From positions 1 through 27,611 of the IMG/VR virus record IMGVR_UViG_3300044625_001244: 27,611 nt of DNA; one strand, given 5' to 3'. Each line of letters starts with the position of its first letter. Within the stretch, counting starts at the first letter, position 1. Source of the stretch: a virus. The notes beneath the pieces were generated by a model that was not told the origin of the DNA, did no database searches, and saw only the letters and a program-made list of their open reading frames with translations. Below, piece by piece: positions 7,360-26,369 of the stretch. A program made the translations under genes and the position numbers.

Positions 7360-9720
7360 TCAGCTAAATGCCAGACCGCTGCTCTTGATCCCGGCCGCGA
7401 TCGCCTTCAGGAATCCCGTCTGCTCGCTCATCGACGCCGCGATCTTCTCAAGCACGGACAACTGGGCCTCCGCGGACGCCGCCAACTTGTCGGGGCTGGC
7501 CACCTGGGCCGAAGCCTCAACGCCCGAGGCCAGGTTGTCTGGCACCGGCGGCACGGTGATGACGCCGCCGCCCTGGCCGTTCGCGCGGGCGTCTGCGGCC
7601 ATCATGCCGGTGTTCTCCGCGATCTTCTCCGTCGCGTCTGCCGTCCGCTCGGCAGCGTTGAGCTGCGGTCCGACGCCCATCTGCGAGGCGATCGAGGCCG
7701 AGAACGTGCCGAGCGTGCTGGCCCCATCCTTCGACTTCGAATCCGCTGAACCTTCCGACGGCAGCGACATCGAGCCGCCGGCATCGGATGCGGCCGGCCG
7801 CTTGACCTCCTCGGCCGCTTTGTCCTCTGCCTTCGTCTCCTCGCCCAGTGCACGCTTGCGAGCCTCGTCCCGTTTCTTGCGAAGGTCCTCGAGCTCTGCC
7901 TCGTCGCGGGCCTTCTTCTCCTCGCGTGCCTTCGCCCGCTGGTCAGCCGCCTCTGTCCTGGACTCCTTGCGCGCGTCCGCCCGCGAATCCGCCGTCGGGT
8001 TTCTTGACCGCTCCTTTGCGATCCTGGCATCAACATCGGCCAGGGCCTTCTTCAATCCGTTGGAGGCGAACCGCCAATCGAACGCCGCCTTGAAATACAA
8101 GCTCAACTTCTCGAACTTGGATTGGAGCGAGTAGATGTCCGAGCCGAACAGGCCCATGAAACGATCGAGCCCCTCGGTGGCCTTGTCCCACATGAACGAG
8201 AACGCACTCGCCAGGCCGTCGGTTGCCGATTGCGTGATGTCGGTGATCTTGTCCCAGCCCTGCTCCAGCACAATCCGCAGGTTCGCCATAGCCAGGGCAC
8301 CGGCAGCGGAGAAGTCCGCGCGGCCGATTGCAGCCATCATCGCGTCGGTCTCTCGCTTGAACGCTGGCGAGAGCTGCCGGCCCGCGACAACGATCAACGC
8401 CAGGCCGGCCGTGATCGTGGCGACCGCAAGGCCGACCGGAGTGGCAAGCGCGGCCAACGCCGCAGTGACCACCGACACACCGGTCGCCAGGACCTTCAGT
8501 GCAACGCCGCCGACAATGGATGCGGTGCCGAGCACGACCAGGCCAGCAGCTGCACCGGCGGCGATCTTTCCGAACGTCGGGAAGGCCGTCAGGAACCATG
8601 TCACACCATCGAGCAGCCCCGTGATGAATCGCGTGGCGATCGCAAGCGACGGGCCGAGCGAAGTTGTGAACGCGATCGCCACCCGCTCGACGGCATCGGT
8701 GATCCGCTTGAACGAGCCACTGATCCCGCCCATCCGCTGGTCGAAAGCCTCGGCGTTGGTGCCCGCCTGGCCCATCGCCTGAGCCATCTTCTCGAACCCG
8801 GCGGAACCGTCCTTCATCAGAATCGTTGCGGCCTTCAAACCATAGGAGCCGAAAATCTTATACATCACCTTCGCACGATCACCGGCACCGAGCTTGTCGA
8901 GCTTGTCGCGCAGGATGTCCATCTGCCGGCCGAGCGGAAGCATCTTGCCGGTCGCGTCCCGAAACGAGTCGGTGGAGAGGCCGACCATCTCCAGCCCCTC
9001 GGCCGCGGAGTCCGCACCGGTCGCAAGCCGGAGCATGGTGGTCTTGAGGGCGGTGCCCGCGTCGCCACCCTTCACCATGTTGTTCGCCAGGATCGCCAGG
9101 GCCTGCGACACCGTATCCATCGACTGATTGGCGTCCTTCGCCACGGCACCGACGTTTGAAAAGGCCTCGACCATCTGCGGAATGTCGGTCGAAGACGAAT
9201 CGGCAGCGGCCTTCAGGATGTCGGTGGCCCGCTGCGTGGACTCACCGAACACGTTCATGGCATCGCTCGCAACCTCGGCCGCCTGGGTGGCCTCGACGCC
9301 AGAGTTGCTGGAGAACTTCACGACCGCCTCGGCCGCACCGTTCAAAGCCTGCTCGAGCGGCATGCCTGCTTTGATGAGCGCGGTGAACGCGTTGGCAATC
9401 TCCGTCGGCCCGCCGACCCCAGCCTTCGAGAGCTCGAGCGACTTCTGCTTGACCTTCTCCATCTCCTTCGCGGTCAGGCCGGCCGACGCCCTGGCGTTGA
9501 GCAGGGCGTCCTCGAACGTCGCGGCCTTCTTCGCAGCCAGGACCATCGGCAAGCCGATGGCAGCACCGCCCAACGCGAGGCCGGTGCCGACCTTCTGCAT
9601 CGCCGCACCCGTGGCCCGCAGCCGGTTCTCCACCCGCTTCATGGCCTGGTGGAACTTGCCATCCTTGGCGAAAATCTCGACAAACGCGCCGCCGGCTCGG
9701 ATGCTTGATGCGGAGGCCAT
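7360..9720 (-). CDS. Tail tape measure protein, TP901 type
   Basis: A 786-residue protein that sets tail length inside the tube. It shows the family core at about 60-250: ATFEDALLNARASAGLTAKE, VGGPTEIANAFTALIKAGMP, MNVFGESTQRATDILKAAAD, ANNMVKGGDAGTALKTTMLR, and the ILMKDGSAGF/QRMGGISGSFKRITDAV steps to 345. Hydrophobic Ala/Gly/Val-rich segments at about 386-446 may insert in the host membrane at DNA ejection. A charged coiled coil (DARKESRTEAADQRAKAREE and onward) spans about 575-645, followed by a Ser/Pro/Ala linker and a helical end. At roughly 0.15 nm per residue this predicts a tail near 115-120 nm. Start fixed by TAATG overlap with the chaperone. Confidence 0.93.
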   Translation of the reverse strand: MASASSIRAGGAFVEIFAKDGKFHQAMKRVENRLRATGAAMQKVGTGLALGGAAIGLPMVLAAKKAATFEDALLNARASAGLTAKEMEKVKQKSLELSKAGVGGPTEIANAFTALIKAGMPLEQALNGAAEAVVKFSSNSGVEATQAAEVASDAMNVFGESTQRATDILKAAADSSSTDIPQMVEAFSNVGAVAKDANQSMDTVSQALAILANNMVKGGDAGTALKTTMLRLATGADSAAEGLEMVGLSTDSFRDATGKMLPLGRQMDILRDKLDKLGAGDRAKVMYKIFGSYGLKAATILMKDGSAGFEKMAQAMGQAGTNAEAFDQRMGGISGSFKRITDAVERVAIAFTTSLGPSLAIATRFITGLLDGVTWFLTAFPTFGKIAAGAAAGLVVLGTASIVGGVALKVLATGVSVVTAALAALATPVGLAVATITAGLALIVVAGRQLSPAFKRETDAMMAAIGRADFSAAGALAMANLRIVLEQGWDKITDITQSATDGLASAFSFMWDKATEGLDRFMGLFGSDIYSLQSKFEKLSLYFKAAFDWRFASNGLKKALADVDARIAKERSRNPTADSRADARKESRTEAADQRAKAREEKKARDEAELEDLRKKRDEARKRALGEETKAEDKAAEEVKRPAASDAGGSMSLPSEGSADSKSKDGASTLGTFSASIASQMGVGPQLNAAERTADATEKIAENTGMMAADARANGQGGGVITVPPVPDNLASGVEASAQVASPDKLAASAEAQLSVLEKIAASMSEQTGFLKAIAAGIKSSGLAFS

Positions 9721-10414
9721 TAGTCACCAAACACCGCCGCAAAATCCTCGTCAGTCAGGACTTTCGGTTGTGGCGGTTTGTAGTAGGGGTTGAACTCGTT
9801 GGGGGAGTATTGCTCGCGGCGTATCCGCACATCTCTGTTGATGCTGGCCTGCTGCGCTAACACGTGCGCTGTGTGATTCCATGCGTCTTTTTGCCTTGCT
9901 TCCGCCGCCCAGGTGAGCCCGCGGAGCGTCCATGGACGGGGGTCGACTCCGAGGATTCCTCCGAGCTGGTAGCACAGTTTGTAGACGTCAACAGGCTGGC
10001 TACTTCCTGCTCGATCTGCCGGCTCGCCATGTCCACCTGCTTTGCCACCTGCGCCACCACTTCCCTGTCTGCCTCGACGGCTCGATTCCAGAGTCTCATC
10101 AGTGCCGGCTGAATCTGCTTCCGGCAAAAAAAAATCGCCTCCTTCACCAAGGCGTTCAACGACTCGTTCAGCACATCGGCGTCGAACCCGTTGGCAAACT
10201 CCTCCGGCGAAACGCCCCGTGCCTCGCACTGCTCGGCGCACAACTGGTAGAGCACATGCCCCAGGGTGAAAGCGTCGGCCAGCTGCGTCAGGCACTCTCG
10301 CGTCGTGGCAAGCGTGGTCATGTCCACGCCGGCGTTTAGCTTGACCCGCTCCCACGCGCCGAGCGATCCGGCGATGTCCCAGGTGCGGCCCTTGTTGTCT
10401 CGGAACTGTTTCAT
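9720..10414 (-). CDS. Tail assembly chaperone, -1 frameshift fusion (gpGT-like)
   Basis: The -1 frame carries a second conserved domain with no start codon of its own: KLCYQLGGILGVDPRPWTLR, GLTWAAEARQKDAWNHTAHV, LAQQASINRDVR, ending YYKPPQPKVLTDEDFAAVFG. The 'aGi.GvDP.pwTLR.L ... W.htA.llA ... NRD' pattern is that of T-domains of tail chaperones. A -1 shift from the 185-residue frame gives a product of 231 residues from the same ATG. Its TAA overlaps the tape measure ATG as TAATG. The shift could occur at T9 (10134-10126) or, judging from where protein-like sequence changes frame, near the codons ACA AAC at 9982-9977. The first 45-50 residues after T9 in the shifted frame look non-natural. 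Confidence 0.78.
9857..10414 (-). CDS. Tail assembly chaperone, unshifted form (gpG-like)
   Basis: A 185-residue protein from ATG 10414, set by the ATGA overlap with the tube gene stop. It begins MKQFRDNKGRTWDIAGSLGA, then helical segments (VLYQLCAEQCEARGVSPEEF ... IQPALMRLWNRAVEADREVV ... MASRQIEQEVASLLTS). Codon third positions stay GC-rich to about 9985, after which the frame becomes Ser/Thr/Gly/Arg-rich and ends HGITQRTC, typical of a shadow tail. Lambda-type phages make a gpG-like protein and a frameshifted gpGT fusion that bind the tape measure and recruit tube subunits. Position immediately before the tape measure fits this. A run of nine Ts lies at 10134-10126 inside it. Confidence 0.8.
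   Translation of the reverse strand: MKQFRDNKGRTWDIAGSLGAWERVKLNAGVDMTTLATTRECLTQLADAFTLGHVLYQLCAEQCEARGVSPEEFANGFDADVLNESLNALVKEAIFFCRKQIQPALMRLWNRAVEADREVVAQVAKQVDMASRQIEQEVASLLTSTNCATSSEESSESTPVHGRSAGSPGRRKQGKKTHGITQRTC
10126..10134 (-). other. Slippery T9 run in chaperone gene
   Basis: Nine consecutive Ts on the coding strand, read as ATT TTT TTT TGC in the 0 frame, contain the heptamer T TTT TTT, a canonical -1 slip site (X XXY YYZ). Homopolymers of nine can also cause RNA polymerase slippage. Both frames remain open beyond it. It is otherwise odd in GC-rich DNA, so it is probably selected or a sequencing hazard. Confidence 0.6.
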
Positions 10415-17568: not shown

Positions 17569-18456
17569 TCACCCTGCGTACATGAACGGACGCCAAACGC
17601 CACCATCGAACACGACGAGAGCCTTCGCCTGGCCGTAGTACGCATTGAGCGTGACCACGCCCGTCGAGGTGTTCGTCCTGATCTCCAGCTGATTGCCGAT
17701 GGCTTCGGTTTCGGTCAGCACAAAATCGAACCCGGCACTGACGCCGGTCGGAAGAACGACGTATCGCGTGCTGCCGTTGGCCGACAGGAACTGGTACTTG
17801 TCGCTCGTGCTGGTCAGCGTTTTCGTTCCGGTCAGAATCTCGACGTTGACACCGCCGCGTGCGCCTGCGCCCGTCGGGCCCGTGCTCCCCGTAGGTCCGC
17901 CCGACGGGCCGGTGCTTCCCGTCGCGCCCGTCGGGCCCGGCGTGGTCGACTGCGGCCCGGTCGGCCCGGTCACCGTGGATTGCGGCCCGGTGCTACCCGT
18001 CGGGCCTGTGCTTCCTGTTGGGCCTGTGACGGTCGATTGCGGTCCGGTGGTCCCGGTGGGTCCGGTGCTGCCCGTCGGGCCGGAGACGGTCGATTGGGGG
18101 CCTGTGCTGCCCGCCATGCCGGTCGGTCCGGTGCTGCCCGTGGGGCCTCCCTGGATCGACAGGCCTCCTCCCCAGGAGCCGCTGGCCTTCGGACCGTAAA
18201 GGTAGCCAGTGCCGTAGTCGATGTACCAATCGCCGCTGACGCCCAGGGCGTTGGACGGCGTGCCGGAGCCACTGTAGATCTTCGGGCCGTCGGCACCGTG
18301 CGGACCCGTCGCACCGGTCACGCCCTGGCTGCCAACCCATGCCGATCCGTTGTACGTCAGCACCGTGCCTGCGGCCGGTGCGGTGACGCCAACGGGCACG
18401 CCGGCCAGCTGCGTGGCGTTGCCCGACGATGGACTTGTGATCGAGAAGAACGGCAT
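17569..18456 (-). CDS. Collagen-like tail fibre protein, short paralogue (295 aa)
   Basis: Residues 1-45 are a conserved head ([17 protein letters not shown], then a TYNGSAWV block). Residues 58-98 carry the module KIYSGSG...GDWYID...[10 protein letters not shown], which I know from phage and bacterial fibre proteins. Residues about 103-201 are Gly-X-Y repeats, mostly GPT and GST triplets interrupted by PQST inserts, expected to form a collagen-type triple helix. Residues 202-295 are a beta-rich C-terminal knob ([20 protein letters not shown] ... [15 protein letters not shown]). A trimeric virion fibre is the natural inference. It is a paralogue of the next gene, with which it shares the head and module; the gap between them is 8 bases. 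Confidence 0.85.
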
Positions 18457-18830
18457 CAGTCACTCTCCAGCAACTGCGTGTGGATTCGGCGGATTCGTTG
18501 GCCGCGATCGGCCCAGGCCCAGGGATTGCTACCACCACCTGGGATCATCACCTCGAAGGTTCTCCGCGTCCCGCTCGCATCGGTCTCGTGTATCTTGTCG
18601 CCGCGCTTCGGGGCGTCTTTGTAATCGTCCACGCCCACGAAAAAGTCGCGCGTCTCAAACCGCACCAACTGCCCGGCCGCATCCGTCGCATCCCACCTGG
18701 TCATGCCGATGGTCGCGGCGACCGACTTGGCGAACATCGCCCCAGCAGGCTGGTACTCGACCATCACCGAAAGGTGCTCCTTTCGCTGCTGCTCGAACCA
18801 ACTGACGCCTCTGGCGATCATGTCCTGCAT
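18456..18830 (-). CDS. Head-tail joining protein, lambda FII-like
   Basis: A 124-residue protein with an N-terminal helix ([20 protein letters not shown]) then beta-rich sequence: [41 protein letters not shown], ending [19 protein letters not shown]. The helix-then-beta-barrel layout, the P-x-R-G-D-x-I step and the place right after the decoration protein fit lambda gpFII-like head-tail adaptors, which form the ring between connector and tail tube. Identity to FII itself is not obvious, so this is a position-plus-layout call. The ATG 18830 has AGGTGA 3-4 bases upstream. Its TGA overlaps the next gene's start by one base. Confidence 0.62.
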
Positions 18831-18855
18831 TGGTCACCTGCTGTGTGCGCCACGG

Positions 18856-18894
18856 GGGCCGGGCGGCGCGGACGCGTCCGCTGCCGCCCGGCCC
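18856..18894 (-). terminator. Long GC-rich hairpin after the DUF2190 gene
   Basis: Starting 12 bases after the stop codon, GGGCCGGGCGGC (18856-18867) pairs with GCCGCCCGGCCC (18883-18894) over 12 bases. Inside, a perfect 14-base palindrome GCGGACGCGTCCGC continues the stem after a single bulged base. No U-run follows, so it is either a U-less terminator or an mRNA stabiliser between the head genes and the connector/fibre genes. Confidence 0.65.
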
Positions 18895-18906
18895 TTGCCG
18901 CACGGA

Positions 18907-19233
18907 TCACGAGCCGGGCCAGAGCTTGACCTTCACGGCCGCGTCGGTGGTGGCGGGCTTCGCGGCGACGTAGCCGGCCTGAACACCCGTCACGCCGGTC
19001 ACGGCCTGCGATCCGTACAAGTACACCTTCGCGCCCAGCGCGTAGTCCGTGCCGGCACCGGTGGGCTTCGGGATGTAGAACACGCCCTCGACCGCCACCG
19101 CACCGAGCGCACCGGCCGCGATCGGCCTGGGGGCCACGCCCACCATCGTGCCGATCTGGATCACATCGCCCGCCGACACCGCCGACACCGGCGTGTAGTC
19201 GATCAGGTCTCCGTCCTGAACATAAGCACCCAT
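18907..19233 (-). CDS. DUF2190 family protein, probable capsid decoration
   Basis: A 108-residue all-beta protein: MGAYVQDGDLIDYTPVSAV, AGDVIQIGTMVGVAPRPIAA, VAVEGVFYIPK and a Val-rich C-terminus (KVKLWPGS). These blocks match DUF2190, a family next to capsid genes that includes capsid cement/decoration proteins; it would sit on the outside of the head and stabilise it. The ATG 19233 is chosen because GAGGA lies about 9 bases upstream and the residues before it are not family-like. The gene stands alone between two strong hairpins (19276-19309 and 18856-18894), an arrangement fitting a protein needed at capsid-like copy number. Confidence 0.82.
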   Translation of the reverse strand: MGAYVQDGDLIDYTPVSAVSAGDVIQIGTMVGVAPRPIAAGALGAVAVEGVFYIPKPTGAGTDYALGAKVYLYGSQAVTGVTGVQAGYVAAKPATTDAAVKVKLWPGS

Positions 19234-19275
19234 CGAATGGTCCTCGCAAAAAAGGTTTGTGGTTTCGTTCGTCAT

Positions 19276-19309
19276 GCCGGCGGGCAGCATGTTCACGCTG
19301 CCCGCCGGC
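19276..19309 (-). terminator. Strong hairpin after the capsid gene
   Basis: A perfect 13-base-pair inverted repeat, GCCGGCGGGCAGC against GCTGCCCGCCGGC, with an 8-base loop lies 23 bases after the capsid stop. A T-run (6 Ts at 19256-19250 on the transcribed strand) occurs about 20 bases further on, not directly after the stem. It could be a partial terminator or a 3' stabiliser that keeps capsid mRNA abundant. Confidence 0.65.
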
Positions 19310-19332
19310 CACGGTTTGCACTCTCGTCAGGC

Positions 19333-21189
19333 TCAGGCAGTTGCCATGCGGTAGGCCGCGAGGCTTTCCGCCTTGGTCACGCCGAAGTCCATGAAGCCGC
19401 GGAGGCCGACCCCCAGGAGCTGGTAGTCCGGCTGGACCTGCTCGATGGTAGGCACCTGCTGACCGTTCAAGAACACGACGTCGAGGGCCGGGAGGTCCAT
19501 CGCGTCGGCCATCAGCCACCAGGTCGTGCTGGAGGTGAGGTAGGCCGAAGTGACCACCCGGTACCGACCCTGCAGCACGTTGGCGTTGGGGGCGGCCGTC
19601 GTGTTGCCGCTGATCAGCAACGCGCTGGTCATCAGCTCCGCAGCGGTCAGCTCGAGCTCCGGCGGAACGAGCAGCACGCGCGGCGGGATGCCGAGCGGGT
19701 TGCCGTCCGGATCGGTCAACCGACGCCAGGCCGTGGCGGCGGTCTTCAGGCTGGACAGCGACAGCGCGTTCCCAGCGGCCGCCGAGGCCTTCTGGTAGTA
19801 GGTGCTGTTCGCACTCTCGAACTCGGCCCAGATGGCTTCGTTGAGTGCCAGGCCGGCACCACGACCCATCCGCTGCGGCACCATCGACAGCGCGTTCAGG
19901 TCATCGTTGATGATGTCCTGACGAGTGAGCTGCGTGGTGATGCCGTAGGTGTCGGCCGCCAGGGACCGCTTCGAGTCGGAAGCCTGAGCCACCTTGAGCT
20001 CCCCGGCGTTGCCGATCCGCTGGAACTTGAACGAGCCGTTGAGACGCAGCAGGTTGATGTTCTTGAAGTCCGTGACGCTACGGACCGCGGAAATCTCCTT
20101 CCACGTGTTCTCGACGCTCATGAACCCCGCGAGCAGGAACTTGTTGACCAGGGCGGCCAGCAGGTTCTCGATGGCATGGGTGGCGAAAGCCGCCTGAATC
20201 ATCGGGGCCAGCGTGCCGCTGGTGACCCGATCGGAACCGGTGTAGCCGTTGGCCTTTGCGGCCTTCACGAGCACCTGTCCGACCGACACGTCTCGGCGGG
20301 CCTTGTCGGCCGCTTCGAGCGTCCTTTCATCGAACGCCTTGTCGACGTTCGGCAGACCGCCCTGCATGCACAGGGCCGCCTCGATCACCTTGTCGCCCGA
20401 AACGGGCTCCGACGCGTGGATCGCCGGGAGGGCGGGCCGTGCGTCGCGCGTGGCCTGGAGCTTCTGCATCTTCTCGACATCTCCCTTGAGGGACTCGAAA
20501 GCCGCCTTCAGTTCGGCGGTGCCTTCGGCCTCGACCTTCGGGGCCTCCACGGCGACGCTCGCCGTGGCTTCCGTCTTTGGCAGCTCGGCCTCGACGGGCG
20601 TTTCGTTGGCGTCGTGCGCCATGGAATCACCTTCTTCACTCGCTTCCGCAGCGATCGCGGCCGACGTACTGGGGTCGGCTCCCATGAGGACGATGGATGT
20701 CTCGCGGAGGGCACTGGCACGCACCACCGAGATCGGGCCGGTGAACTCGCGGCCGTTCACGGTCACAGACTCGCCCGGCCCGACGTTCTCGATGCGGCCG
20801 GTGTCTGCTCCGATTGACGCCTGAAACCGCATGCCTCGTTTGGCGAGGGCGATGACCTTCTGCGCTGTCTCGCCGGCCCCGATGAGCTCGCCCGCGATCA
20901 CGAGCTGCTGCCCGTCGCTGGTGATGCTCGAGCTCTGGCCGAGCACGCTGTCAATCGAGGAGTCGTGGCCCCACAGGATCGGGATCGCCTGCCGGCTGGT
21001 GTCCATGCCCGCCAGGTCCACGACCAGAGGATTGCGCGACCACGACTGCCGGATCGCCCGGCCGGTGTAGGCCACAAGCTCGAACGTCGGCACCTGCTCG
21101 GCGGCGTCTGCGGCCTTCAGCGCAAACTCGGCCTCGATGGCGCACAGCCGAGGCTCGACACTGGTGGCCGGTCGGTTCTTCTGCTTCAC
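19333..21189 (-). CDS. Prohead protease fused to major capsid protein
   Basis: A 618-residue two-domain protein. Residues 1 to about 185 are a HK97/U35-type maturation protease: AIPILWGHDSS with probable catalytic His75, RFQASIGAD with probable Ser125, and the family's VVRASALRETSIVLMGADPS end. A charged Glu/Ala/Lys-rich stretch (about 190-290, EELP-type, coiled-coil-like) corresponds to a scaffold or delta region. The rest is a HK97-fold capsid protein ending GVGLRGFMDFGVTKAESLAA. The protease normally trims scaffold from the prohead. Start GTG 21189 is set by the GTGA overlap with the portal stop and AGGAG 9 bases upstream; residues before it are a shadow of the portal. An internal ATG at 20622 (residue 190) has GAAGGTGA upstream and could yield capsid protein alone (429 aa). 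A strong hairpin follows the stop. Confidence 0.9.
   Translation of the reverse strand: MKQKNRPATSVEPRLCAIEAEFALKAADAAEQVPTFELVAYTGRAIRQSWSRNPLVVDLAGMDTSRQAIPILWGHDSSIDSVLGQSSSITSDGQQLVIAGELIGAGETAQKVIALAKRGMRFQASIGADTGRIENVGPGESVTVNGREFTGPISVVRASALRETSIVLMGADPSTSAAIAAEASEEGDSMAHDANETPVEAELPKTEATASVAVEAPKVEAEGTAELKAAFESLKGDVEKMQKLQATRDARPALPAIHASEPVSGDKVIEAALCMQGGLPNVDKAFDERTLEAADKARRDVSVGQVLVKAAKANGYTGSDRVTSGTLAPMIQAAFATHAIENLLAALVNKFLLAGFMSVENTWKEISAVRSVTDFKNINLLRLNGSFKFQRIGNAGELKVAQASDSKRSLAADTYGITTQLTRQDIINDDLNALSMVPQRMGRGAGLALNEAIWAEFESANSTYYQKASAAAGNALSLSSLKTAATAWRRLTDPDGNPLGIPPRVLLVPPELELTAAELMTSALLISGNTTAAPNANVLQGRYRVVTSAYLTSSTTWWLMADAMDLPALDVVFLNGQQVPTIEQVQPDYQLLGVGLRGFMDFGVTKAESLAAYRMATA
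20618..20640 (-). promoter_or_regulatory. Possible internal ribosome binding site for free scaffold-capsid protein
   Basis: Within the protease-capsid gene, GAAGGTGA precedes an in-frame ATG (20622-20620) at suitable spacing. The ATG falls exactly at the junction between the protease domain and the scaffold-like stretch. Initiation here would give a 429-residue protein (MAHDANETPVEAE...). This is analogous to the lambda C/Nu3 arrangement, where an internal start supplies scaffold. Not proven by sequence alone. Confidence 0.5.
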
Positions 21190-22601
21190 GACTGCGACTC
21201 CTGGGGCTGCTGCGTTGGCTGCGGTGCCTGCTCCTCGAGACCGAGCTCGCGGAGAAGGGCCTTCTCGGCCGCACGCTGCCGCAGCACCTCTCGCCAATCG
21301 GTGCCCAACTTCGAGCACTCGTCGGCCAGCGTGGTCGTGTTGTTTGACAATCTGATCGTCTGCGCGTCGGCCTCCTTCGTGGGGTCGACATGCTCCCAGC
21401 CCTGCCAAATCCAACGCCAATTCCAGGTGGCGACGGGGGGCAGGCCGTCGGGCAGCAGGCCGCGCACAAGCGCGGCTTCATCGAGCCACTCCGACAGCAG
21501 CGGGTCGAGCACGTTGCGCTCGAGGTCCTCACGCAGGCAGTTCACACTCTTGCGGTAAACCAGGTAGTCGCCACGCATCGAGCTGTACGACGCCTGCGAT
21601 GAGTCAAGCGCGGCGACGATGTACGGCAGGTTCAGGCAGCGGGCGATCTGATTCAGCAGCCGCTTCTCGAACGCGTCGAACGTGGTGGTCGGATGCTCCG
21701 GCTTCATTTGCGTTGCGTCCCACCCGTCGGGCAGGCTCATCGCCATGCCGCGCACGATGGGCATCGTCTCCCAGCCGGGGAGCGGTGCCGTGCCAGCGTC
21801 GCCGCTGGGCATGTTCGTGTGGATGAGTGCAGCGAAGTCCGCCGCCGTCTCTGCCGCCGTGACGGTCGCCAGCGTGTACCGCCGCAGCATTGCGAACAGT
21901 TCAAGGGCCGGGACGATCTCGCCCACGCCGCGGTGCTGCCCTGGCCGGGTTCTGTTTGCCCAGTGCAGCACGCGATCTGCTGGCACCCACTCGCCGGAGT
22001 TGCCCGTCCATGTCAACGAGCCAGGGTGGTGCGTCAGGATGTGCCACTCGGTGACGTTTCCAGCCTCATCAAGACGCAGGCCGTCGATCGCCCCGAGTTC
22101 GAGAATCCAGGTTGGGTTTGCCACCTGGTCGGCCTCGACAAGTCGGATGTCGAGCTGCACGCCGTCCAGCTTGGTGTTGGTCTGCTTGACCGCAAACGCC
22201 TCTCCGTCGGTCGCCCGGGCAATCCGCATCGTGCGAAGTTTCGCGGCCAGGTCGATGGCCCGGCCCCACTCGTGCACTGCGTGCTCGATCTGTCGCACGC
22301 GGGCGTCCTCGGGCGGAACCTCTGTGATCTGCAGCTGCAGCCGGGGTCCGGTGCCGACCAGGTCCGTCGCCAACGTGGACAGCATCCCGGCCAGGTACGA
22401 GTTGTTGGCGGCCTCGTACCTCGAGCGGACTCGCAGCGTGCGGCGGATGCCGGGATGCAGGGCCGCGTCGGCGGACAGCCAATCAGCCTGCGCCCAGTGC
22501 CGCTGATTCAGCGGCGTGGTCTGCGCGGCGTCGTATCTCGCCTCCACCTGCTCAGGTGCGGCTTCGTGCAGGCGACGATTGAAGAATCGAAGCAGGCCCA
22601 T
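21186..22601 (-). CDS. Portal protein, lambda gpB family
   Basis: A 471-residue protein that forms the dodecameric ring at one capsid vertex, through which DNA enters and leaves and onto which the terminase docks. Family features: the N-terminus MGLLRFFNRR, R-x-L-R-x-R-S-R-Y-E-A-A-N-N block around 57-70, NSYLAGMLSTLATDLVGTGP, WILELGAIDGLRLDE, HILTHHPGS, VLHWANRTRPGQHRGVGEIV (about 210-230), and the C-terminal YIVAALDSSQASYSSMRGDY. Length is near that of lambda-type portals (about 500 aa). The C-terminal 20 residues are Gln-rich. The start is fixed by the one-base overlap with the preceding stop, and the stop overlaps the next GTG as GTGA. Confidence 0.92.
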   Translation of the reverse strand: MGLLRFFNRRLHEAAPEQVEARYDAAQTTPLNQRHWAQADWLSADAALHPGIRRTLRVRSRYEAANNSYLAGMLSTLATDLVGTGPRLQLQITEVPPEDARVRQIEHAVHEWGRAIDLAAKLRTMRIARATDGEAFAVKQTNTKLDGVQLDIRLVEADQVANPTWILELGAIDGLRLDEAGNVTEWHILTHHPGSLTWTGNSGEWVPADRVLHWANRTRPGQHRGVGEIVPALELFAMLRRYTLATVTAAETAADFAALIHTNMPSGDAGTAPLPGWETMPIVRGMAMSLPDGWDATQMKPEHPTTTFDAFEKRLLNQIARCLNLPYIVAALDSSQASYSSMRGDYLVYRKSVNCLREDLERNVLDPLLSEWLDEAALVRGLLPDGLPPVATWNWRWIWQGWEHVDPTKEADAQTIRLSNNTTTLADECSKLGTDWREVLRQRAAEKALLRELGLEEQAPQPTQQPQESQS

Positions 22602-24203: not shown

Positions 24204-26369
24204 TCAGCGGCCCATGCGTGCCATGAGCTCCGCACGCTTCGCAGCCAGGGCCTCGCGGTCATATTGCGGCCTGGGGGCGGACGTTGCCCTGGCCTGGACG
24301 CCCACGGCCGAGACTCCGCTATAAGACGCGGCGACAGCCGCTCCGATCACGCAGTCCCACCAGTGATTGTCTCGGCCTGGTATTAGCCGCCACTCATCGA
24401 CAACGCGATTCTTCGCCATCACGCGAGTGGGGTACTCGGCCGACATGTGCTCGGCAAGCAGGTCGTGCTGGCCGGCGTGGATCGTGAACGCCTGCGGATC
24501 TCCGACGGCCAACTTGCACCGGGCTGCCACAAAGGTTTTCCAGGCATTGGTGTCAAACAGGATGTGCCGCTGCCGTCCAATGGTGCTCGTTCTCCAGTTC
24601 GATCCGACACGCTCGCCGCGGTCTGGCTTCTTGTCCGAGATTGTCGAGCCGCTGGCACCGACGAAACGGCCATGCGACGGGAACACTCGCGGCCCCCAGG
24701 GCGAACGCCTGGCGAAGTCTCGCACGACGCCCTGCGTCTGCGCCCAGTTGGCGTCGATGAGCAGCTGCCCGACGCGCAGCACGGCATCGTCTCCCTCGCG
24801 CGTGAACTCCCGCTCGAGCAGGTCGCCGCACACTCGCTCCAATCCAGCGTGGATCGCGGCCTCGAGCGACGCACCGCCCGCCGCCTTCATCAGCGTTTTC
24901 TTTATGTCTCGCAGGGTAAAGTATGGCCGACTCTGGTCGGGGTATGTTCCGTAGGACACAACATGGCCCCGCAGCTGGTCGCCCCACGCCACGACCAGCC
25001 AATACAACGCCCGCTCCTGGACGTCGACAAAAGCAGTGAGGGTGTCGAGGCCACGGGGGACGATCCACCGCTGCACGTTGATGGCACGTGCCGCGACCTC
25101 TGGTGCCTTCAGTGCATCGGACCGAGCCTCGTCCATCAGAGGCTCGTTCTGAAACTCTGCCTGGAACGCGGCCTCGCCGCGGTCGATCCTGAGATTCCAA
25201 GCGTGCTGGATGGCCGAGAGCTCGTCCTCCTGCTTGCGGTCGGGCCAGGCCACGCGGCAACCAGCGTCCATCTGCTCGCGGTGCTCGGAGTAGAACCCGT
25301 CGGCTTCTTCCGTGCCGATGCCGGAACGCTGTCCGCGCCGACGCAACTCGGCGTACTGCTCCCACATGCCGGTGTCGGTCGGCCACTCGTACACGAGTTT
25401 CGTCCGCTGGCCCTGCCAGGCAGGATGCCGCTCCCGGTCCAGGAGCCGATCGGCCAGATCGTCTGGAGAAACGACTGTCACGGTGCACAGACCGGCGATC
25501 TTCACGCCCGGCCCTGCGAGGCCCAAAATTGCCCCTTTTAGGACAGCCTCGCGGCTGGCGACCTGGGATGGGCTGCGAGCACTTTCGTCGGTTTGGGGGT
25601 CATCTATGAGCACCAGGGAGGGCCTGACCTTCCTGCCGTCGCTGGCACGCTTGGCGGTCATGCCTCGTATCCGTCCGGTGATGCCGGCCACGCGGATGAT
25701 CCCTGACGATGCGGCCGATCCTGGGATGGTGGGGAACTGCACCTCGTTGGCGGTCCATTGGATATGAGTCGGCTTCCCCTTGTAGAGCTGGCCCATGGCG
25801 CGCTGGTGAATCCGCTCGAGCGCGACGATCGGATAGACCGCCTCTGGGAAGTCCTCGAGCAGGAGGGCGTTGGTCTCGCACTCCACCTTGATGCTATCGA
25901 GCATCGTGGACGCATGCCCCTCGTCGCTGCCGATGATCGCCACGAAGTCTCGGTGCCCGTACAGCAGGGCCCACAATGCTCCGGCTTCGACCAGGCTTGT
26001 CTTGCCGCTACCTCGGGGCATGGCAAAGGCGAACAGTCCGCCCTTCGTGACCGAGGCCTCGATCGCGTCGATCACTCGAAGGTGGTCGGCCGACCAGGGG
26101 AGGCAGAACGTGGCCGGCTGGTACGACTCGCAGAACATCCGGAACGACTTGGCTGCAGCATCCTTGCGGGCCTGGTCCACGACTTCGGGCAGGTTGCCGA
26201 TGTCACGGCCAGACTCGGACAGGGCCGCTGCTCGTGCTGCGGCCCTGTCCTTGATGCTGTCGTACTGGGTTCGAGGTGCCCCCAGACGCTTCCGCATATC
26301 CGAGACATCCCGCAGCTGCTTGCGGAGTCTCTGCTCTGCCTCGATCGCCCGCTGTAGCGGATCGCTCAT
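24204..26369 (-). CDS. Terminase large subunit, GpA-like
   Basis: A 721-residue DNA-packaging motor. It translocates DNA into the prohead with an N-terminal ATPase and cuts concatemers with a C-terminal nuclease. Seen: a charged coiled-coil-like N-terminus (1-70); Walker A AMPRGSGKT (Lys about 123); Walker B LVLIDDPQTDE (252-262); SPDDLADRLLDRER (301-314); and nuclease-type acidic positions in TAFVDV (about 449), LLIDA (539) and RDNHWWDC (672). The NHWWDC block resembles the C-terminal signature of lambda GpA-type terminases. The ATG at 26369 lacks a clear Shine-Dalgarno site, and the start is 3 bases after the previous stop, so translation is probably coupled. The C-terminal 30 residues are Arg/Ala-rich and may contact the portal. 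Family call is firm; cos or pac type cannot be told from the sequence. Confidence 0.93.
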   Translation of the reverse strand: MSDPLQRAIEAEQRLRKQLRDVSDMRKRLGAPRTQYDSIKDRAAARAAALSESGRDIGNLPEVVDQARKDAAAKSFRMFCESYQPATFCLPWSADHLRVIDAIEASVTKGGLFAFAMPRGSGKTSLVEAGALWALLYGHRDFVAIIGSDEGHASTMLDSIKVECETNALLLEDFPEAVYPIVALERIHQRAMGQLYKGKPTHIQWTANEVQFPTIPGSAASSGIIRVAGITGRIRGMTAKRASDGRKVRPSLVLIDDPQTDESARSPSQVASREAVLKGAILGLAGPGVKIAGLCTVTVVSPDDLADRLLDRERHPAWQGQRTKLVYEWPTDTGMWEQYAELRRRGQRSGIGTEEADGFYSEHREQMDAGCRVAWPDRKQEDELSAIQHAWNLRIDRGEAAFQAEFQNEPLMDEARSDALKAPEVAARAINVQRWIVPRGLDTLTAFVDVQERALYWLVVAWGDQLRGHVVSYGTYPDQSRPYFTLRDIKKTLMKAAGGASLEAAIHAGLERVCGDLLEREFTREGDDAVLRVGQLLIDANWAQTQGVVRDFARRSPWGPRVFPSHGRFVGASGSTISDKKPDRGERVGSNWRTSTIGRQRHILFDTNAWKTFVAARCKLAVGDPQAFTIHAGQHDLLAEHMSAEYPTRVMAKNRVVDEWRLIPGRDNHWWDCVIGAAVAASYSGVSAVGVQARATSAPRPQYDREALAAKRAELMARMGR

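Follow-up and report, generated by a model that had tools for sequence, protein, structure and literature searches.

The protease, the scaffold and the major capsid protein of tailed phages are encoded in several arrangements. In HK97, the protease (gp4) and the delta domain with the capsid protein (gp5) are separate genes. In lambda (C/Nu3) and Mu (I/Z), an internal, in-frame start where protease and scaffold meet gives co-terminal products whose shared C-terminal part is scaffold only, the capsid protein being encoded separately. Herpesviruses use the same nested, co-terminal logic in UL26/UL26.5, where the short form has its own promoter and excludes the capsid protein. Protease-capsid fusions are likewise a known kind. 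PHROG 4523 is named 'major head and protease protein', and NCBIfam holds two fusion models, NF045541 and NF045540. In phages S1, R4C, VP882, RcKemmy, MD8, F10 and mEp043, a single gene encodes all three parts (protease, scaffold and capsid). The available text of the MD8 study describes this one-gene arrangement and also cites the lambda C/Nu3 overlap (PMC8508860), and capsid and protease are fused in RcC-cluster phages (PMC8601537). The annotations examined for NF045541/NF045540-type fusions give the full-length product only and describe no internal start, so that virion proteomics, capsid N-termini and expression constructs may be misread. In a literature search covering few subscription journals, neither an internal start nor RNA hairpins were found to be described for any protease-capsid fusion, and the word protease is absent from the R4C cryo-EM paper. 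The head of a tailed phage takes hundreds of capsid subunits but few protease molecules, and fusing the two genes would seem to fix them at a 1:1 ratio. A conserved nested start would resolve this problem by giving little protease and much capsid protein from one gene.

The window considered here comprises 27,611 nucleotides of viral DNA (IMG/VR record IMGVR_UViG_3300044625_001244, positions 1 to 27,611), and its relevant features are collected in Table 1. The initial annotation had described a single 618-residue protease-capsid frame, which is present on the minus strand with profile matches to both parts. It had also presented separate protease and capsid genes as the usual layout and the fusion as an exception; the first may be the commoner arrangement, but fused genes are too well known for the second to stand. 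The gene order is terminase (24204-26369), a small gene, portal, fusion, decoration protein and head-tail joining protein, and many NF045541/NF045540 fusions are likewise placed after the portal and before the decoration gene. The four-base overlap of portal stop and fusion start recurs, with ATG or GTG starts, in 22 of 30 relatives with portal gene sequence, the fusion starts having been picked by a simple score. No sigma-70-like promoter was found in 19100-21400, which is weak evidence, as this consensus may not suit the host. Between the head and tail genes, a collagen-like, tail-fibre-like protein is encoded at 17569-18456 (minus strand).

Table 1. Features of the fusion locus, in window coordinates
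Feature	Position	Strand	Basis
Portal protein, directly upstream of the fusion	21186..22601	-	profile matches
AGGAG, Shine-Dalgarno (SD)-like run serving the fusion start	21198..21202	-	sequence
GTGA, portal stop codon overlapping the fusion GTG by four bases	21186..21189	-	
Fusion ORF of 618 aa with GTG start: prohead protease, scaffold (delta) and major capsid protein	19333..21189	-	
Protease domain, residues 35-180, T4 gp21/herpesvirus-protease fold	20650..21087	-	predicted model
Internal ribosome-binding-site-like GAAGGTGA	20627..20634	-	
Internal ATG, codon 190, in frame	20620..20622	-	110/110 distinct relatives with aligned codon
Putative second product, 429-aa scaffold + major capsid protein	19333..20622	-	inference
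H1 hairpin UGGCG-CACGA-CGCCA; 5' arm begins at the U of the internal AUG	20607..20621	-	
H2 hairpin, arms CCGUC (20597-20593) / GACGG (20575-20571); strongest covariation	20571..20597	-	
H3 hairpin CCACGGCGA-GCG-UCGCCGUGG	20547..20567	-	
Predicted long helix, residues 224-250	20440..20520	-	AlphaFold2 model
HK97-fold capsid domain, about residues 274-618	19336..20370	-	profile match + model
Head decoration/cement protein, directly downstream of the fusion	18907..19296	-	profile matches

Both parts of the frame were recognized by profile searches. Residues 63-240 match a head maturation protease family (phrog_3244, E 1e-20), and residues 335-613 match the phage capsid family PF25209 (E 3.5e-35, 123 bits, cut-off 27). 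The model named 'prohead protease/major capsid protein fusion protein' (NF045541) spans residues 35-614 (E 2.6e-64). As in fusions of this type, a prohead protease and an HK97-type capsid protein share a single frame, but the window's clade scores below the curated threshold (window protein: 217.9 bits against 525), and the window protein is a relative and not a formal member of NF045541. Peptidase S78 (PF04586) gave 17.9 and 19.9 bits, under its gathering cut-off of 21, and the HK97 proheadase model TIGR01543 matched weakly and below cut-off (E 2e-4).

An AlphaFold2 model of the fusion was built from family members. The protease modelled alone (pLDDT 87.9) gave Z 10.7 to T4 gp21 and about 7 to 10 to herpesvirus proteases, so that the likeness to the UL26 system extends to the predicted protease fold. 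Foldseek returned no match for the protease alone at E below 0.001, and the fold assignment therefore rests on the Z-scores. His75 and Ser125, invariant across 29 sequences, are candidate catalytic residues, as would be expected of a capsid-assembly serine protease of the herpesvirus/T4 gp21 fold. The capsid domain has an HK97 fold, with Z 12.5 to HK97 1ohg and Z 14 to encapsulins. Between these two confidently modelled domains lies a low-confidence, presumably disordered linker (residues 182-223), which contains Met190. The predicted helix that follows is a probable delta-like scaffold domain, and a product starting at codon 190 would have the layout of HK97 gp5, an HK97-fold capsid protein with an N-terminal scaffold region.

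The presence of an ATG with a ribosome site at the protease/scaffold junction, reported in the initial annotation, is confirmed: codon 190 lies in the linker, with GAAGGTGA upstream, in which AGGTGAT matches the anti-SD sequence at the 16S rRNA end over seven bases and at a good spacing. The annotation had asked whether relatives lose the ATG or the site, and they retain both. Scans of IMG/VR gave 110 distinct family members with an aligned codon 190, and this codon is ATG in every one of them. Among 33 representatives below 90% identity, the ATG and an SD motif at -15 to -5 were present in 33, and codon 190 is the sole conserved Met with a conserved SD, which argues against chance. The residues encoded under the SD vary (ED, EG, EE, EV, KE, QE, GD, KG), with one-codon insertions too, while SD forms are kept between clades (GAGG, GGAGG, AAGGAG, GGGG or GAAGGTG). 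Codon 190 had a stronger anti-SD energy than the 415 other in-frame ATGs with which it was compared (P 9e-15, calculated on sequences that are not independent). Compared with synonymous shuffles, SD strength was significant at 5% in 0 of 33 single sequences, and a paired test gave P 5e-4. Synonymous conservation across the representatives is at or near the gene's highest in codons 189-214, with GCG191 and GCC194 kept in 32 of 33. In a pattern scan, 56 of 71 new matches with the family's spacing were the fused gene; a control scan with 6-nt spacing, which is not that of the family, gave 0 of 21.

The internal start was also found in distant fusions. Two proviruses about 30% identical, one in a Lentisphaerae MAG (L082) and one in a planctomycete MAG (L083), have a strong SD-ATG at the junction, with GAAGGAGATCTTATG and GGAGGTGCGGACATG, respectively. 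All 30 L083-like loci with both domains are fused; a strong SD-ATG is present in the linker of 23 and missing from that of the other 7. Most Planctomycetota provirus loci that were read have an SD-ATG or SD-GTG at the junction, and some have none. Isolated fusion phages of the NF045541/NF045540 type resemble the window in this respect. Among 15 such phages, of the window's protease type and of the ClpP type, an SD-motif ATG was present at the junction in 14 (Mae-JY22, which was ambiguous, is not counted among the 14), against 17 of 207 other in-frame ATGs; the P value of 5e-14 is optimistic, as the junction ATG was picked after looking. The conservation of the start, its position in the linker and its presence across distant fusion phages strongly suggest that it is used. 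A conserved in-frame start with a ribosome site at the junction is what characterizes C/Nu3-like nested genes, and the earlier proposal that a nested start could yield both the fusion and free capsid protein gains support from near and distant relatives alike, as far as sequence comparison goes.

The same nested start was observed without fusion to the capsid protein. Two loci, L229 (1702-2814) and L231 (reverse-strand ORF 9039-10151), contain homologous protease genes with the same SD-ATG, which stop 153 codons past it. In L231, the protease gene is followed by a small gene and then by a separate capsid-like gene, these identities being assigned by position and eye. Lambda and Mu nest protease and scaffold in the same manner, and the analogy to C/Nu3 drawn in the initial annotation fits. 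The two loci suggest that the nested start predates the fusion to the capsid gene, and their layout may be ancestral to it. In the window, the nested product would include the capsid protein, so that the nesting which lambda, Mu and herpesviruses use for protease and scaffold would be extended to the capsid protein itself. A separate observation was made in Psychrobacter phage Y8A (L084:3399-4331), in whose Mu I-like protease gene AAAGGAG precedes an in-frame GTG (residue 189), likely a nested scaffold start.

Beyond what had been annotated, three RNA hairpins were identified at the internal start. Folds of relatives show a common layout despite differing sequences: H1 takes the form U-GGCG-N5-CGCC-A, H2 starts about 25 bases on and H3 about 55 bases on, and the order H1-H3 is kept. 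Fifty sequences were aligned with MAFFT without structural input; in this alignment 94.3% of cells pair, compared with 88.9% (sd 0.5) in shuffled alignments (reached in 0 of 500 shuffles) and at most 62% when the structure is slid. Cells changed on both sides numbered 52, against 11.3 (sd 5.0) in shuffles, and synonymous-codon shuffles gave z values of 10.0 (H1), 10.7 (H2) and 13.4 (H3). On a protein tree excluding the hairpin region, 21 double compensatory changes were reconstructed for H2, and the pair was kept in 39 of 47 changes. The H1 stem is swapped to GAGC/GCUC in L056 and shortened yet kept in L121. A further 73 loci, found via the H1 pattern and aligned by fitting to the covariance model, match that model, and H2 covaries there too. 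The alignment, the tree and the synonymous-codon controls support a conserved RNA structure that would hold the internal start, and such a structure, embedded where a capsid gene begins, would add a new kind of regulatory element to head assembly.

Folding energy does not single out the hairpin region, with a mean z of -1.16 against synonymous shuffles where other windows reach -1.56, so that the case for RNA rests on covariation and pairing and not on stability. No Rfam family reached its gathering score in the window, the best local matches being at chance level. With the hairpins, the predicted unpaired fraction is 0.30 for the AUG and 0.39 for the SD (null 0.40 and 0.49), and this lowered access would slow rather than help initiation. 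In these predictions, a tuning or coupling role appears more likely than an enhancing one. The subclade of L104, L108, L112 and L114 keeps the ATG and SD without a comparable hairpin element, and a covariance-model scan of six isolate loci did not detect the hairpins. A stem directly 5' of the SD (H0) recurs in single folds, in a region of poor alignment, and is not claimed as an element.

Taken jointly, two C-co-terminal products, the fusion and a 429-aa scaffold-capsid protein, together with tuning or coupling by the three hairpins, very probably account for the comparative sequence data. Ribosomes starting at the GTG that overlaps the portal stop would make the 618-aa protease-scaffold-capsid fusion, and those starting at the internal SD-ATG would make the 429-aa equivalent of HK97 gp5. 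The fusion, whose start is in most cases linked to the stop codon of the portal gene, would probably be scarce and the free scaffold-capsid protein abundant. Both forms would probably co-assemble through their shared scaffold and capsid domains. In this way the protease would enter the prohead and there remove first-hand both the scaffold and its own domain by cleavage. For the clade of the window, the three-hairpin RNA would tune or couple the use of the internal start. The broader proposition, that a previously undescribed cis-regulatory three-hairpin RNA sets the amount of free capsid protein and that nested starts are general and overlooked in protease-capsid fusions, is on balance probable when both parts are taken together.

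For the role of the hairpins, two alternatives are compatible with the two-product explanation. The site lies inside a translated frame, and the predicted resting fold leaves the AUG only partly accessible; ribosomes translating the protease part might therefore open the hairpins and tie free capsid protein to the fusion at a fixed ratio, a reading that is possible but tentative. In the mRNA of the RNA phage MS2, the coat operator hairpin includes a start codon. The likeness to the window is one of layout, with no known binding protein here, and it invites the idea of an operator at which capsid, scaffold or decoration protein shuts off capsid synthesis; the start codon inside H1, the constant order of H1-H3 and the lowered predicted access of the AUG agree with it, but the H1 and H2 loop sequences are variable, which is unusual for a protein operator and makes this reading rather unlikely. 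A DNA element in codons 189-214, such as a binding site, recombination boundary or packaging site, is improbable. The paired arms are also inverted repeats in DNA, and the asymmetry between G-U and A-C was dropped as proof of RNA, as 0.85 observed against 0.79 in synonymous shuffles does not discriminate; however, H2 pairing survives changes in sequence and loop length, unlike a sequence-specific protein site, H1 starts exactly at the start codon, and strong model matches are confined to the internal start among the loci scanned. Production of the full-length fusion only, with one protease per capsid subunit, self-cleavage near residue 190 and an incidental ATG and SD, agrees with the single uninterrupted frame in all relatives examined and with the MD8 analysis, whose available text takes a related gene to yield a single product of three domains and leaves an internal start unmentioned (PMC8508860), but is very unlikely, as ATG and SD are kept though the encoded residues vary, a cleavage site leaves the codon-level constraint at the junction unexplained, and the nested start is also present where the capsid gene is separate.

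Several minor observations were made. Judging from the distribution of proviruses, this lineage probably infects Planctomycetota or relatives; of 294 genomes sampled in the phylum to which L083's genome belongs, 43 carry fusion relatives. Fusion relatives are often several per genome (G001-G293), a common provirus capsid type in that phylum. H3 was considered as a terminator and rejected, as it lacks a U tract, and the minus strand yielded no terminator-like site. A 704-codon open frame (18703-20817, plus strand) runs antisense to the fusion gene and probably results from high G+C codon usage. In L104, L108, L112 and L114, the scaffold region has, in place of hairpins H1-H3, repeated MPTGP/GPTGP-type motifs within about 100 bases downstream of the internal ATG. 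In the window (20621-20547, minus strand) and in relatives, CGCC is complementary to the 5' arm of H1 and to that of H3 alike, and a swap of partners is possible; in some single folds, the start codon pairs with the 3' arm of H3.
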